Source: Ideonella aquatica (lineage in GTDB: Bacteria > Pseudomonadota > Gammaproteobacteria > Burkholderiales > Burkholderiaceae_C). From it: DNA of 64,000 nucleotides. Numbering within the stretch: the first letter of the stretch is position 1; every line of letters begins with the position of its first letter. The position numbers and the translations under genes are program-made. Positions 17,113-53,801 of the stretch are shown piece after piece. The notes below the pieces were generated by a model. The model was not told the origin of the DNA. It saw only the letters and a program-made list of their open reading frames with translations, and ran no database searches. Location of the stretch: contig NZ_JAGQDE010000015.1 of the NCBI RefSeq assembly GCF_018069755.1, forward strand, positions 1 to 64,000, written 5' to 3'.

Positions 17113-18591
17113 ATGCTGGTGCTGGACCATGACCGGGCAGGCGGCTACTGGGGCGCGGTGTACGTGTTCACCGCGATCAAGGGCCTGCAGGTGGTGATCG
17201 ACGGCCCGGTGGGCTGCGAGAACCTGCCGGTCACCAGCGTGCTGCACTACACCGACGCGCTGCCACCGCACGAGCTGCCGATCGTCGTCACCGGCCTGGC
17301 CGAAGAGCAACTGGGCCGCGAAGGCACCGAGGGCGCGATGCGCCGCGCCCACCGCGCCCTGGACCCCGACCTGCCCGCGGTGGTGGTGACCGGCTCGATC
17401 GCCGAGATGATCGGCGGCGGCGTCACCCCCGAAGGCACCGGCCTGCTGCGCTTCCTGCCACGCACGATCGACGAAGACCAGTGGCAGTGCGCCAACCGCG
17501 CGATGAGCTGGCTGTGGACGCAGTACGGCAGCAAGCGCATCCGGGCCGCGACGCCCGCGGCCGAGCGACCCGCCGGCCAGCGCCCCAAGGTCAACCTGAT
17601 CGGCCCGAGCTACGGCGTCTTCAACGGCCCGAGTGATCTGGCCGAGATCCGCCGCCTGGTCGAGGGCATCGGCGCCGAGGTGAACCTCAGCTTCCCGCTG
17701 GGCAGCCACCTGGAAGACGTGCCGCGCCTGGCCGAGGCCGACGCCAACGTCTGCCTGTACCGCGAGTTCGGCGCCGCGCTGTGCGAGCAGCTGGAGCGGC
17801 CCTGGCTGCATGCGCCGATCGGTGTGCACAGCACCACCCGCTTCCTGCGCACGCTGGGCGAGATGCTGGGCCTGGACCCCGAGCCCTTCATCGAGCAGGA
17901 AAAGCACACCACGCTCAAGCCGGTGTGGGACCTGTGGCGCTCGGTGACGCAGGATTTCTTCGCCACCGCCAGCTTCGCGGTGGTGGCCGGCGCCACCTAC
18001 ACCCGCGGCCTGCAGCGCTACCTGGGCGAGGAGCTGGGCCTGCCCTGCCAGTTCGCGGTGCCGCGCGTGCCGGGCGCCAAGACCGACAACGCCGAGGTGC
18101 GCCGCCTCACGCACAGCCGCACGCCGCTGGTGATGTTCGGCTCCTTCAACGAGCGCATGTACCTGGCCGAGCTGGCCGGCGGCCATGGTCCGCGGCCCAG
18201 CTACATCCCTGCCTCGTTCCCCGGCGCCATCATCCGCCGCGCCACCGGCACGCCCTTCATGGGCTATGCCGGCGCCACCTATGTGCTGCAGGAGGTCTGC
18301 AACGCCTTCTTCGACGCGCTGTTTCATGTGCTGCCGCTGGCCTCGGCGCTGGATGCGGTCGAGCCCACGCCCGCCCGTCTGGCGCCCGAGCGCCCGCGCG
18401 CCTGGGACGACGAGGCGCAGCGCCTGCTCGACGAGCTGGTGCGCGCGCAGCCGGTGCTGGTGCAGATCTCGGCCGCCAAGCGCCTGCGCGACCGTGCCGA
18501 GCACGAGGCCCAGCAGGCCGGCGAAGACCGTGTCACCGCCGAGCGCATGGCGCGCGTGCGAGACACCCTGACCACGGGAGTGCCGGCATGA
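17113..18591 (+). CDS. bchZ: Chlorophyllide a reductase subunit Z
   Basis: 492 residues, nitrogenase-component-like. The N-terminus [18 protein letters not shown] and the segment [18 protein letters not shown] with its conserved Cys are characteristic of Bch[15 protein letters not shown] follows. With BchY it forms the catalytic part of the enzyme that makes the bacteriochlorin ring. The stop codon overlaps a 42-codon frame of doubtful reality that runs into pufB, so the puf genes are likely read through from the bch promoter. Confidence 0.96.
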
Positions 18592-18708: not shown

Positions 18709-18858
18709 ATGGCTGATGACCGTAAGGGCTCCCTGTCCGGACTGACCGAGCAGGAAGCACGCGAGTTTCACGGCATGTTTGTGACCAGCTTCATCGCGTT
18801 CACTGCGATCGCGATCGTCGCCCACATCCTCGTGTGGAACTGGCGTCCCTGGCTCTGA
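18709..18858 (+). CDS. pufB: Light-harvesting 1 (LH1) beta polypeptide
   Basis: 49 residues with a polar N-terminus ([17 protein letters not shown]), one membrane span and the bacteriochlorophyll-ligand His at residue 39 in [14 protein letters not shown], the standard LH1-beta signature. AAAAGGAA lies just upstream as the ribosome site, after a short GGCC-GCAA-GGCC hairpin. It is the first puf gene, 117 bp after bchZ. It is separated from pufA by 273 bp holding another ORF, which is unusual because the two are normally almost adjacent. Confidence 0.95.
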
Positions 18859-18894
18859 GCCAGGCCCGCCTTCAACGCTCCTGAGGAGCAAGAG

Positions 18895-19116
18895 ATGACC
18901 GCTTCCACCCTGAAGTCCGACCTTGGCCACACCCGGGGCGCCGAGTCCTCGCGCCTGGTGTTCTGTGTGTGCTTTGCGATGTTCCTGGTGATCGCCGTGA
19001 TCGCCCAGCTGCTGTTCATTCCCTGGCGCAGCTGGCTGACCGGTGCCGAGGACCATCGCTCGCTGATCGGCGGCGTCAGGTCGGCGGTCTACACCCTGTT
19101 GTCCAACATCCCTTGA
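18895..19116 (+). CDS. Single-span beta-like polypeptide inserted between pufB and pufA, no known name
   Basis: 73 residues with a GAGGAG ribosome site before the ATG. Residues 19-48 align without gaps to residues 20-49 of the adjacent PufB with 11 of 30 identities by eye, including the terminal W-R-x-W-L; the His that binds bacteriochlorophyll in PufB is Gln38 here. A 25-residue C-terminal extension (TGAEDHRSLIGG onward) has no counterpart in PufB. It therefore looks like a beta paralogue that may not bind pigment. Length (73) and one span also fit PufQ, but PufQ normally precedes pufB and its C-terminal motif is not convincing. Possible roles are an LH1 ring subunit, a quinone-gate protein or an assembly factor; all are inference. 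Confidence 0.75.
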   Translation: MTASTLKSDLGHTRGAESSRLVFCVCFAMFLVIAVIAQLLFIPWRSWLTGAEDHRSLIGGVRSAVYTLLSNIP

Positions 19117-19131
19117 CTGGAGAGACAAGAC

Positions 19132-19314
19132 ATGTGGAGATTGTGGCTGTTGTTCGACCCGCGACGGGTCCTGATCGCGCTGTTCACCTTCCTGTTCGGA
19201 CTGGCGCTGCTCATTCACTTCATCCTGCTGAGCACCGACAAGTTCAACTGGCTCGACGGCGCCAAGAAAACCAAGGCGGCGACCGTCCAGGTCGAGGCAC
19301 CGCCCAAGGGCTAG
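19132..19314 (+). CDS. pufA: LH1 alpha polypeptide
   Basis: 60 residues. The N-terminus [16 protein letters not shown] and the membrane span with pigment-ligand His29 ([11 protein letters not shown]), followed by [10 protein letters not shown], are the LH1-alpha signature. A GGAGAG ribosome site lies upstream. The C-terminal tail [14 protein letters not shown] is soluble. It pairs with PufB to form the core antenna around the reaction centre. A stable hairpin follows its stop. Confidence 0.95.
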
Positions 19315-19315
19315 T

Positions 19316-19354
19316 CCCGGCACCCACCCTGCGCCTTCGGGTGCAGGGTCCGGG
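19316..19354 (+). promoter_or_regulatory. Intercistronic mRNA hairpin after pufA
   Basis: The arms ACCCTGC (19326-19332) and GCAGGGT (19343-19349) are perfect, extended by CCCGG (19316-19320) with CCGGG (19350-19354) across a 5-base bulge. No T-run follows. In Rhodobacter such a hairpin between pufA and pufL protects the pufBA message and gives excess antenna over reaction centre. The same role is inferred here from position and structure. Confidence 0.7.
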
Positions 19355-19492
19355 CCGGAGACCCCCTTGTTCACCGTCCCTCGGCATCCGAGCCTGCCGC
19401 CTGCCCACGGGCAAGCGACCGGCCGCATGCCGACCCAACACCTGATCGGCGCAGCCCCTTTTTGACGAGCTGCGTCTGCATGGGAGTCGGCC

Positions 19493-20317
19493 ATGGCCAT
19501 GCTCAGCTTCGAGCGCAAATACCGCGTCCGCGGAGGAACCCTGATCGGAGGCGACCTGTTCGACTTCTGGGTCGGTCCGTTCTACGTGGGCTTCTTCGGC
19601 GTCACCACTGCGTTCTTCGCGACGCTGGGCACCGCGCTGATCCTCTACGGCGCCGCCCTGGGTCCGACCTGGAACCTGTGGCAGATCAGCATTGCGCCGC
19701 CCGACCTGAGCTGGGGCCTGCGCCTGGCGCCGCTGGCCGAAGGCGGGCTGTGGCAGTTGATCACGATCTGCGCGCTCGGGGCCTTCGTCTCCTGGGCGCT
19801 GCGCGAGGTCGAGATCTGCCGAAAACTGGGCATCGGCCTGCATGTGCCGGTGGCCTTCAGCTTCGCGATCTTTGCCTACTTCACGCTGGTGGTGATCCGC
19901 CCGATGCTGCTGGGCGCCTGGGGCCATGGCTTCCCCTACGGGATCATGAGCCACCTGGACTGGGTGTCCAACACCGGCTACCAGTACCTGCACTTCCACT
20001 ACAACCCGGCGCACATGCTGGGCGTGAGCTTCTTCTTCGCCACCTGCTTCGCGCTGGCGCTGCACGGCTCGCTGATCCTGTCGGCCACCAACCCGGGCAA
20101 GGGCGAGCCGGTCAAGGCGCCCGAGCACGAGAACACCTTCTTCCGCGACACCATCGGCTACTCGATCGGCTCGCTGGGCATCCACCGCCTGGGCCTGTTC
20201 CTGGCGCTGTCGGCGGCCTTCTGGAGCGCGATCTGCATCGTGCTGAGCGGCCCGTTCTGGACCCGCGGCTGGCCCGAGTGGTGGAACTGGTGGCTGAGCC
20301 TGCCCGTCTGGCGCTGA
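19493..20317 (+). CDS. pufL: Photosynthetic reaction centre L subunit
   Basis: 274 residues. [10 protein letters not shown]-type N-terminus ([13 protein letters not shown]), five membrane spans, the special-pair and accessory-pigment His region [15 protein letters not shown], and the iron/quinone region [13 protein letters not shown] with the later [15 protein letters not shown]. PufL and PufM carry the bacteriochlorophyll, bacteriopheophytin and quinone cofactors of the type II reaction centre. It is 178 bp after pufA, a gap that contains the hairpin. Confidence 0.97.
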
Positions 20318-20358: not shown

Positions 20359-21321
20359 ATGGCCGAGTACCAGAACCTCTTCACCCGCGTCCAGGTCCAC
20401 GCGCCCGCCTACCCGGGCGTGGCGCTGGCCGAGGACAAGCGCGCCGGCACCCCGGTGCATGTGCATCTGCTGGGCCGCTTCGGCGACGCGCAGATCGGCC
20501 CGATCTACCTGGGCTGGCTGGGCGTGGTCGCGCTGATCCTGGGCTTCGCGGCCTTCGAGATCATCGGCCTGAACATGCTGGCCTCGGTCAACTGGAACCC
20601 GATCGAGTTCGTGCGCCAGTTGCCCTGGCTGGCGCTGGAGCCGCCGGCGGCCGAGTACGGTCTGAGCATCCCGCCGCTCGAGAAGGGCGGCTGGTGGCTG
20701 ATGGCGGGCTTTTGCCTGACCATGGCCATCCTGCTGTGGTGGGTGCGCATGTACCGCCGGGCGCGCGCGCTGGGCCTGGGCACGCATGTGGCGTGGGCCT
20801 TTGCGGCGGCGATCTGGCTGTACCTGGTGCTGGGCTTCATCCGCCCGGTGATGCTGGGCCACTGGAGCGAGGCGGTGCCCTTCGGCATCTTCCCGCACCT
20901 GGACTGGACGGCGGCCTTCTCGCTGCGCTACGGCAACCTGTTCTACAACCCCTTCCACATGCTCAGCATCGCCTTCCTGTACGGCTCGGCGCTGCTGTTC
21001 GCGATGCACGGGGCGACGATCCTGGCGGTCACCCGCTTCGGCGGCGAGCGCGAGATCGAGCAGATCCTGGACCGCGGCACCGCCAGCGAGCGCGCCGCGC
21101 TGTTCTGGCGCTGGACCATGGGCTTCAACGCGACGATGGAGTCCATCCACCGCTGGGCCTGGTGGTTCGCGGTGCTGTGCCCGCTGTGCGGCGGCATCGG
21201 CATCCTGCTGACCGGCACCGTGGTCGACAACTGGTACCTGTGGGCGGTCCAGCACGGCGTGGCGCCCAGCTACCCGGCGGCCTACCCGGTCGCACCGGAC
21301 CCGGCCCTGGCCCCGCAATGA
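20359..21321 (+). CDS. pufM: Photosynthetic reaction centre M subunit
   Basis: 320 residues with the PufM N-terminus [13 protein letters not shown], five membrane spans, the pigment-ligand region [33 protein letters not shown] near the non-haem iron, and [13 protein letters not shown], the iron/quinone His region. It partners PufL. AGGAG precedes its ATG. The following pufC suggests that its electron donor is a bound cytochrome. Confidence 0.97.
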
Positions 21322-51954: not shown

Positions 51955-52809
51955 CTAAAAGGGAATATCTAGCGCAATCGTCAGACTCTTTATGCGCTCA
52001 TCAAGACTTGCCATTAATTTGGTCATTTGAGCCGAGTATTTTGGAAATGTCTTTGCAGGTTTGATTTTTGGAGTTATTAGGTTCGCTGTTAGCCTCAAGT
52101 ACGCCTGTAAACAGTTGAGTTGATCCAATACTACAGCCTGCTCTGCTTTTTCAGTTACCCTCAGTGTATTGTAGCCATAATCTATTGCATTCTGTAGCAA
52201 TACAAGCCAGTGATTGACCGACCCGTCATCTACTGGAGGGGCGGGGTTAAAGGATATGGATCGAACGATGCTCAATGTTTCCTCGACCATATCCTGGAGG
52301 CTTCGAGGGGCCGGAGTTAGGTCCGGTGATTTTGAGCTAAGGATGCTTTGAATGTTATCGTCGAGCTCGTTCCAGCATCGATCAAAGGCTCTCTCCAATT
52401 GCACCTCGGTTAATGGAGTGGCAGTCTCAGCGTTCACCACCTTCATAAACTTGAACACCTCGTCTCTTGAGTATGGCGTGGCTTGGAATTGCAGCAATGG
52501 CCCAGCCAATTGCGCTGAATCTACCCCGAAGAGCAGAGGGCAGACCTTTCCATTTCGACTATCCTTCGATACTGCACCCGCCTCAAATAACAGCCAAGGC
52601 GCCGTGAGATTTTCGGCAGTAAGGCAGAATAGACCAAACTGGCTATTGTGCAGATTCTCCGCAATCTCTGTTGCCCAGCGTTGGCCTTTTGCCACATCAT
52701 CAGGGGTGAAGTATGGTCGCACCGACTGAATTACTTCTGGCAACCAATTTCTGAATGCCTCGCCAATTTGTCTGCTTTTTTCGCCCGACCAAGAGATAAA
52801 TATTTTCAT
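51955..52809 (-). CDS. TIR-domain protein, probable NADase effector
   Basis: 284 residues from ATG 52809; upstream in-frame codons lack support. Residues 1-130 are a bacterial TIR domain: MKIFISWSGEKSRQIGEAF, YFTPDDVAKGQRW and TAPWLLFEAGAVSK, in which Glu76 matches the catalytic Glu of NAD-cleaving TIRs. The rest is helical with no recognised domain. Base composition is much more AT-rich than the flanks, with codons such as AGA and ATA, indicating acquisition. Bacterial TIR proteins often act in antiphage defence by depleting NAD+; its role here is inferred. Confidence 0.8.
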   Translation of the reverse strand: MKIFISWSGEKSRQIGEAFRNWLPEVIQSVRPYFTPDDVAKGQRWATEIAENLHNSQFGLFCLTAENLTAPWLLFEAGAVSKDSRNGKVCPLLFGVDSAQLAGPLLQFQATPYSRDEVFKFMKVVNAETATPLTEVQLERAFDRCWNELDDNIQSILSSKSPDLTPAPRSLQDMVEETLSIVRSISFNPAPPVDDGSVNHWLVLLQNAIDYGYNTLRVTEKAEQAVVLDQLNCLQAYLRLTANLITPKIKPAKTFPKYSAQMTKLMASLDERIKSLTIALDIPF

Positions 52810-52920
52810 GGTTTGTGGTGTGAGTATTTTGAGATGGAGCGCCACTTCTAATTTTGGGCCTGACGTTCGAGGTGACGTGCAAATTGCAGCTTGCTGAAAT
52901 TCTTCGCCTCGACTGAGGTG

Positions 52921-53373
52921 TCATGCCCCTGTTTCGACACCGATGACAACAGACACATTGCGGAATTGATTCTTCGCCAATGTGTTCCCCATGACGTAGA
53001 GTGCACTCTCGTCGGAGTAAATGTTCAATCCGAAGGGTCGAAGATCCAATTTCTGCACATTGAGTACCGTTTCGTTTCCGCGTAGGGCGCTAAGCACAAC
53101 TCCCTGCGGTGTGCGGACAACGATTCTCTTTGGGAATGCCTCAACCTTGACGTCAGGATGCGATGAGAAGTTGTCCTTAACTAGTGGATACCAGCGCGAA
53201 CCCGTTCTGTCTGCTGGTATGGAAAGCCAGACACGTGGAGTAGCCCCGTTGCCGATGAGCAAAGGGACGTTGCCGCCCACCGTGGCGAGCGCCTTCACGT
53301 TCTCAAGCATGTTCGAGCCGATGCGCACCCTAGTGAACGGCTCGTATTGCGATGGCAGGTCGAGGGGCGTCAT
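52921..53373 (-). CDS. Unknown 150-residue protein in TIR island
   Basis: No family recognised. It is predicted soluble, with alternating beta-rich stretches (RVWLSIPADRTGSRWYPLV, KRIVVRTPQGVVL). The ATG overlaps the stop of the upstream membrane-protein gene (ATGA), so the two are coupled. It lies 111 bp upstream of the TIR gene in the same direction and shares its lower GC content, which suggests a joint system. Confidence 0.65.
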   Translation of the reverse strand: MTPLDLPSQYEPFTRVRIGSNMLENVKALATVGGNVPLLIGNGATPRVWLSIPADRTGSRWYPLVKDNFSSHPDVKVEAFPKRIVVRTPQGVVLSALRGNETVLNVQKLDLRPFGLNIYSDESALYVMGNTLAKNQFRNVSVVIGVETGA

Positions 53374-53801
53374 TGTAAATCCGGGTTCGCAGTGAGGTGT
53401 ACCCGGCGAAGCTTATTAATTGTGAAGTGGCCGTCGATAACTTCTTCGAGTTTGAACCGATCACTATCTTCCTGCGAGTGGACGAACTTAATAACGAGCG
53501 AGGCAAGCACGCCGGCTGCAATTGCCCAGAGTTCCCACGATTCAATCGTGGGAGCCTTCTTGTCAAGAAGCGCCGAAAGAGCCTTGCCCGCGATCGATAT
53601 GACAACACCCGCAGTCGCGCCGGCGCACAGGGTGAACCAAAATTCAGAGGACGTACGTCGACGAAGCACGGCGAATTCGAACTTCGTTAGTTCGTAGGGC
53701 TTCTCGGCGATGTAGCGCTCTGGTTCGGCATCGATCGCACCACGCAGCATCAGTGGTGAGTCAAACCGTTCGCCTTCAATCACACGGTGAGAATCGGACA
53801 T
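53370..53801 (-). CDS. Unknown two-span membrane protein in TIR island
   Basis: 143 residues. Two hydrophobic segments lie at ~54-76 (FWFTLCAGATAGVVISIAGK) and ~89-107 (ELWAIAAGVLASLVIKF), with a 50-residue N-terminal cytoplasmic-like part and a C-terminal FKLEEVIDGHFTINKLRRVH. First gene of the minus-strand island, coupled to the next. No family recognised. Membrane partners accompany several defence effectors, but no direct match is claimed. Confidence 0.65.
   Translation of the reverse strand: MSDSHRVIEGERFDSPLMLRGAIDAEPERYIAEKPYELTKFEFAVLRRRTSSEFWFTLCAGATAGVVISIAGKALSALLDKKAPTIESWELWAIAAGVLASLVIKFVHSQEDSDRFKLEEVIDGHFTINKLRRVHLTANPDLQ

Follow-up and report, generated by a model that had tools for sequence, protein, structure and literature searches.

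A ligand-less relative of the LH1 beta polypeptide encoded between pufB and pufA in phototrophic Burkholderiales

Between the pufB and pufA genes of Ideonella aquatica, within the 64,000-nucleotide stretch of DNA that was analysed as a whole (the window), lies a 73-codon gene, hereafter X, whose product is, on profile comparison, homologous to the beta polypeptide of the LH1 antenna across the membrane segment, the W-R-x-W motif and the tail known from extended forms of beta, while lacking the His that ligates the pigment. X is not peculiar to the I. aquatica genome and is common in its order. Its product has probably been overlooked as a component of the photosynthetic core complex, or as a helper in its assembly, and is, with a probability that we put at about one half, a pigment-free, tail-bearing beta derivative located in or on the LH1 ring. 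The gene itself is not new, since ORF2 had already been reported in the puf operon of Rubrivivax gelatinosus; an open reading frame described in 1994, whose function was still given as "unknown" in 2025, thereby gains a sequence identity. Within the open-access literature searched, no prior description of X as a PufB relative was found; to that extent, the recognition of X as a ligand-less beta, its distribution and its mutual exclusion with related genes are new here. From these data, the core complex of phototrophic Burkholderiales is predicted to have a subunit, or a factor for its assembly, that has so far gone unseen, and the kinship between beta and the PufQ-like genes discussed below bears on the nature of PufQ.

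Gene X within the puf operon

In the window, X occupies positions 18895..19116 of the forward strand (ATG to TGA) and is preceded by a GAGGAG at 18883..18888 (forward strand), which its sequence and pairing energy designate as the likely ribosome site. The pufB stop lies 36 bp ahead of X, and 15 bp separate the end of X from the pufA ATG, in agreement with the earlier note, in which a 73-codon gene with its own ribosome site was said to separate the two antenna genes. The neighbouring genes all lie on the forward strand: pufB (18709..18858) codes for a short LH1 beta of 49 amino acids in which the ligand His is present (PF00556, 42.6 bits; NF040862, 86.4 bits), pufA (19132..19314) codes for an LH1 alpha of 60 amino acids (PF00556, 63.9 bits; NF040861, 75.6 bits), and pufL (19493..20317) and pufM (20359..21321) are both matched by PF00124. 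Upstream, the open reading frame at 17113..18591 is presumably bchZ, a name assigned from position and synteny. Since the spacing between bchZ and pufB is of only 117 bp, the PufQ position is empty in the window. In the genome of I. aquatica, PF00556 matches PufA and PufB only, and therefore no LH2 was found.

That pufB and pufA are usually almost adjacent, as the earlier note had assumed, is confirmed by the measurable loci devoid of X, in which they are 10-86 bp apart, whereas the 123 loci that contain X have a spacing of 255-303 bp (a partly redundant set, which leaves out 4 more X loci that had been mis-sorted). The pairing energies of the ribosome sites in the window are -7.5 for X, -6.4 for pufA and -4.9 for pufB, and the medians over 26 loci are alike for the three genes (-7.9 for pufB, -7.2 for X, -7.3 for pufA). 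A strong hairpin lies 3' of pufA, at 19314..19370 of the forward strand (z -4.46 over 19300-19380), and is a common signal, with a median z of -3.14 in 27 loci, although weaker in some of them. X belongs to the pufB-X-pufA segment ahead of this hairpin and, given this place in the operon and the ribosome sites, its product would be expected to reach levels similar to those of alpha and beta. As regards the gaps flanking X, the median z in 27 loci is 0.36 between pufB and X and 0.14 between X and pufA. In the window, a hairpin extends across the pufB stop codon (18838-18898, z -2.56); as a general feature it was rejected on the basis of the former median.

Relationship to the LH1 beta polypeptide

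The alignment put forward in the earlier note was reproduced in all its numbers: residues 19-48 of X face residues 20-49 of the window PufB without gaps, with 11 identities out of 30 and the closing W-R-x-W-L in common, and Gln38 of X (codon 38, 19006..19008, forward strand) stands opposite the ligand His39. BLASTP gives an E-value of 9e-7 for this pair, in a single comparison, and the best ungapped identity count of the window pair alone was equalled in 17 of 2000 block shuffles. The likeness is therefore best described as modest from the window pair alone, and as strong once relatives are added to the comparison. Indeed, a profile built from 55 X rows scores 97.5 against 14 extended PufB, all from outside the order, 56.0 against 32 short PufB and 15.4 against PufA. 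The controls, run with an earlier set of 56 X rows, reached at most 27.3 with block-shuffled targets (40 shuffles each) and 18.4 with reversed profiles. The additional row of that set, L128, proved to be a truncated extended PufB, and its removal lowered the score against extended PufB from 104.1 to 97.5 and the score against PufQ-like genes from 78.6 to 75.0. L128 is also included in the set behind the shuffled controls and behind the model scores of the extended PufB of genome G318, namely 97.9 by the X model and 96.5 by the beta model, the former model thus holding one cut copy of the same protein.

The absence of the pigment ligand is general. Among 101 distinct X-type frames, the sole one with a His was L128, which was excluded as a cut extended PufB; none of the remaining 100 has a His at the ligand place, which is taken by Gln in 81, Thr in 9, Ser in 5, Glu in 2, and Gly, Leu and Ala in 1 each. 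By comparison, the ligand His is found in all 131 PufB that could be parsed out of 145 distinct ones. The His located 18 residues ahead of the ligand place is present in 130 of the 131 parsed PufB versus 5 of the 100 X. The profile score against extended PufB and the missing His together uphold the description of X as a beta paralogue devoid of the pigment ligand. X resembles PufB, and above all its extended form, in the membrane helix, the W-R-x-W motif and the tail, but differs from it in having neither the ligand His nor the S-G-L-T-x-x-E-A-x-E-F-H start, and in not being matched by PF00556, which does match PufB and PufA of the window. Pfam and NCBIfam searches with X alone gave nothing useful.

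The best-kept parts of X are the W-R-x-W motif and the tail motif S-L-x-G-G-V-K-x-A-V-Y-T-F-M-S. The 25-residue tail noticed earlier is thus present, but it was not merely added to a beta core, as it is homologous to the tails of extended PufB. The gene is judged to be under purifying selection from 15 pairs of X genes, 14 of which show dN below dS, the exception being the L017/L019 pair with a dS of 0 and a dN of 0.033. AlphaFold2 predicts with confidence a membrane helix at residues 13-41 (18931..19017, forward strand; block-mean pLDDT of 88 and 81 for residues 21-40), and a doubtful tail helix at residues 55-71 (19057..19107, forward strand), for which the evidence is a pLDDT of about 50-62 and the conserved tail motif, the pTM of the whole model being 0.34. 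The orientation of X in the membrane would, by analogy, be that of beta. The nearest solved chains found with the X profile, 8z81_B, 7xxf_B and 9m8m_B, are all extended betas; among the 39 PDB sequences matched at an E-value of 0.1, none is named LH1-gamma, protein-W or PufX, and the PDB searches returned no close RC-LH1 structure for phototrophic Burkholderiales.

In an unrooted tree of 75 proteins and 72 columns, whose bootstrap values are unsettled, X forms one clade (95/92) and the PufQ-like genes another (95/89), beta making up the remainder. The extended PufB of the order are placed at the end of beta closest to X. Five loci of the order, in five genomes (L217, L218, L219, L221 and L222), carry an extended PufB with the His and an X-like tail but no X, and look intermediate between PufB and X.

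Occurrence of X and of its relatives

When 60 related genomes were searched at the protein level, 9 gave a match, 1 of which was judged due to chance, and X was found in 2 of the 16 genomes of the genus of the window. At the level of the order, the profile search matched 53 of 399 sampled genomes, PufB and chance matches included, and PF00124 revealed reaction-centre genes in 48. X accompanies a short PufB in 38 of these 48 genomes and is followed by pufA in 37 of the 38, the contig of the remaining one (G087) ending before that point. Five others have an extended PufB directly followed by pufA, without X, and three, from one genus, likewise lack X, their pufB coding for a short form and being preceded by a PufQ-like gene. 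As two of the 48 are cut by contig ends, 46 are readable, and in none of them do any two of X, extended PufB and a PufQ-like gene occur together; within the order, X is thus met only where PufB is tailless. These 46 genomes are mutually related and stand for fewer than 46 independent cases, and the PufL tree, from which 9 genomes are absent and in which 3 rows are partial, is poorly resolved for counting switches between the arrangements. One genome, G309, has X without a PF00124 match. Several candidates were discarded: G318, G064, G288, G214 and G201 had been matched through their own extended PufB, and L013 of G018, the matches in G582 and G883 and the weak matches within long frames were attributed to chance.

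In the genome_contigs collection, the patterns picked out 345 stretches, of which 308 encoded a relative, extended PufB possibly being among these. The pufB-X-pufA order is found in 79 of the best 80 of the 308 loci, the eightieth (L054) starting inside X, and the titles of these best 80 include Rubrivivax gelatinosus, R. benzoatilyticus, Piscinibacter, Rivibacter and Ideonella. X is conserved across several families. Conservation among relatives sharing the pufB-pufA gap, on which the earlier note had made its reading partly hinge, is therefore what was observed, in 79 of the best 80 loci as well as in 38 of 48 genomes. Searches for X in the plasmid collection and in viral contigs gave no match.

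Two members of the family had already been reported under other names. In R. gelatinosus, the puf operon contains, upstream of pufA, an ORF2 first reported by Nagashima in 1994 (as quoted in PMC12817894), whose function is given as unknown. ORF2 is described there as being of low identity to PufA2 and as lacking a His where the alpha ligand would stand, and the section of that article in which this is stated draws no link to PufB (PMC12817894). In our data, R. gelatinosus DSM 1709 (L073) has X between pufB and pufA, and X is almost certainly this ORF2, which shares its place in the operon and is of about 74 amino acids. Matched by place and length, X is also very probably the ORF74 of Roseateles depolymerans. 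In the account given for that species, the locus tag of ORF74 falls between those of pufB and pufA, the gene shares the major 1-kb puf transcript with both, and it is among the three loci that change most upon starvation (PMC10037100).

Outside the order, 22 phototroph loci were retrieved from class and phylum samples by their match to the X profile, which makes them a biased set, and X was found between pufB and pufA in none of them. Ten combine an extended PufB with a PufQ-like gene, five have an extended PufB alone, one has a short PufB with a PufQ-like gene, five have a short PufB without one, and one is unreadable. Because an extended PufB and a PufQ-like gene stand together in 10 of these 22 loci, the mutual exclusion is a trait of the order and not a general rule; likewise, the five short-PufB genomes with neither X nor a PufQ-like gene mean that the tail is dispensable for some LH1. 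Both facts weigh against the ring reading set out below. One of the loci with a short PufB and no PufQ-like gene, in G1095, has a canonical PufQ at the PufQ position.

Possible roles and origin

The reading that we favour, a ring subunit derived from beta, can be laid out as follows. In the simplest history, an ancestral extended beta would have been duplicated, after which one copy lost its tail but went on binding pigment and the other did the reverse, although the direction of duplication and loss is only inferred since the tree is unrooted. The two jobs would thereby have been divided, PufB retaining the pigment and X retaining the tail on what would be the periplasmic side. Made in near alpha/beta amounts, X would be sited in or against the LH1 ring, and might shape, seal or stabilise it as a pigment-free subunit, in a role like that of LH1-gamma or protein-W. 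A non-pigment helix at the LH1 ring is indeed the possible role that X would share with LH1-gamma, the gamma-like peptides, protein-W and PufX. In Rhodopila, 11 gamma-like peptides are described as lying between the beta polypeptides and blocking the pores, but this peptide is unlike X in its length of 22 residues and its opposite orientation (PMC9640540).

A serious rival, which we consider possible but doubtful, is that X is a relocated PufQ-like factor, which would not be a ring subunit but a small membrane protein that assists bacteriochlorophyll supply or the assembly of LH1 and that moved from the bchZ-pufB slot to the pufB-pufA slot; in Rhodobacter, PufQ has been tied to ferrochelatase and porphyrin flux (PMC5725709). 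The small genes of the bchZ-pufB slot in alpha- and gammaproteobacteria (L140, L133, L163, L165, L166, L145, L147 and L148), most of which have no PF05398 match, are homologous to beta by profile. The X profile scores 73.2 against 11 PufQ-like genes and 75.0 against 8 from alpha- and gammaproteobacteria, outside the order (shuffles at most 23.5; controls for the eight genes at most 22.6), and PufQ-like genes score 57-58 against extended PufB (shuffles at most 20.8). In addition, the PufQ-like gene is missing where X is present, the bchZ-pufB gap being of at most 207 bp in 114 X loci versus 371-558 bp in loci in which that gene was read, and the three X-less genomes of the order with a short PufB do carry such a gene. 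The tails of X and PufQ-like genes are alike, and the X of G087 (L169:1210-1512), with an X core of W-R-S-W-F-P-G and a long tree branch, ends as a PufQ-like gene does. Against this reading, the X profile scores higher with extended PufB (97.5) than with the PufQ-like genes (75.0). The latter form a clade of their own, and their link to canonical PufQ is itself weak (23.3, with shuffles at most 19.4 in 25 shuffles). X shares with PufQ and the PufQ-like genes the operon, a small size and a single membrane span, but lies after pufB instead of between bchZ and pufB. Canonical PufQ (26 sequences) scores 27.5 against X, which does not exceed the shuffles (at most 29.9), and 23.2 when the 55-row X set is used; against extended PufB, canonical PufQ scores 9.1. 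With such scores near the shuffle range, the tie of X to true PufQ is a weak one. PF05398 gave no match to X, and its two weak matches in the same genome, both below the cut-off, lie away from X. The identity with the PufQ family that the earlier note had named as its main rival reading is thus not supported by a family match, but the rival lives on in a new form, because the small genes that occupy the PufQ position in other lineages share homology with X and never turned up alongside it. The ring subunit is nevertheless preferred to the PufQ-like helper because X is closer to beta and belongs to the high-expression segment. As a separate observation, the PufQ-like gene of G457 (L140) has a His at the ligand place.

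Quite unlikely, in our opinion, is a second bacteriochlorophyll-binding beta, which would hold its pigment through the Gln or another residue and pair with alpha in part of the ring. Gln is able to ligate the magnesium of chlorophyll in other proteins, it prevails at the ligand place of X, and the beta-like core is kept together with W-R-x-W. However, no ligand is conserved across the family since that place varies, with Thr, Ser, Glu, Gly, Leu or Ala in the other sequences, and the His located 18 residues before it is rare. Hardly credible, finally, is the view of X as a remnant, or as a frame serving chiefly for the spacing or control of the puf message. It would suit a gene standing between two highly expressed genes on one transcript, but is at odds with the dN/dS values, with the conservation of the tail motif and the maintenance of X over several families, and with the gaps on both sides of X, in which no general RNA structure was found.

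In its widest form, the ring-subunit proposal would have the beta of Burkholderiales split into a short pigment-binding beta and the tailed, pigment-free X, present in many copies in the ring, with the genes at the PufQ position of other purple bacteria tracing back to one ancestral extended beta shared with both, and with antenna subunit, ring accessory and PufQ-like factor consequently making up one superfamily; taken as a whole, this extension is speculative and rather unlikely to hold.

Elsewhere in the window, a gene with a TIR domain (51955-52845, reverse strand; PF13676, E 3.5e-8) lies near two open reading frames at 52921-53373 and 53370-53801, in a stretch whose G+C content is 51.5%, versus near 70% in the rest of the window, and which is possibly an acquired defence island.
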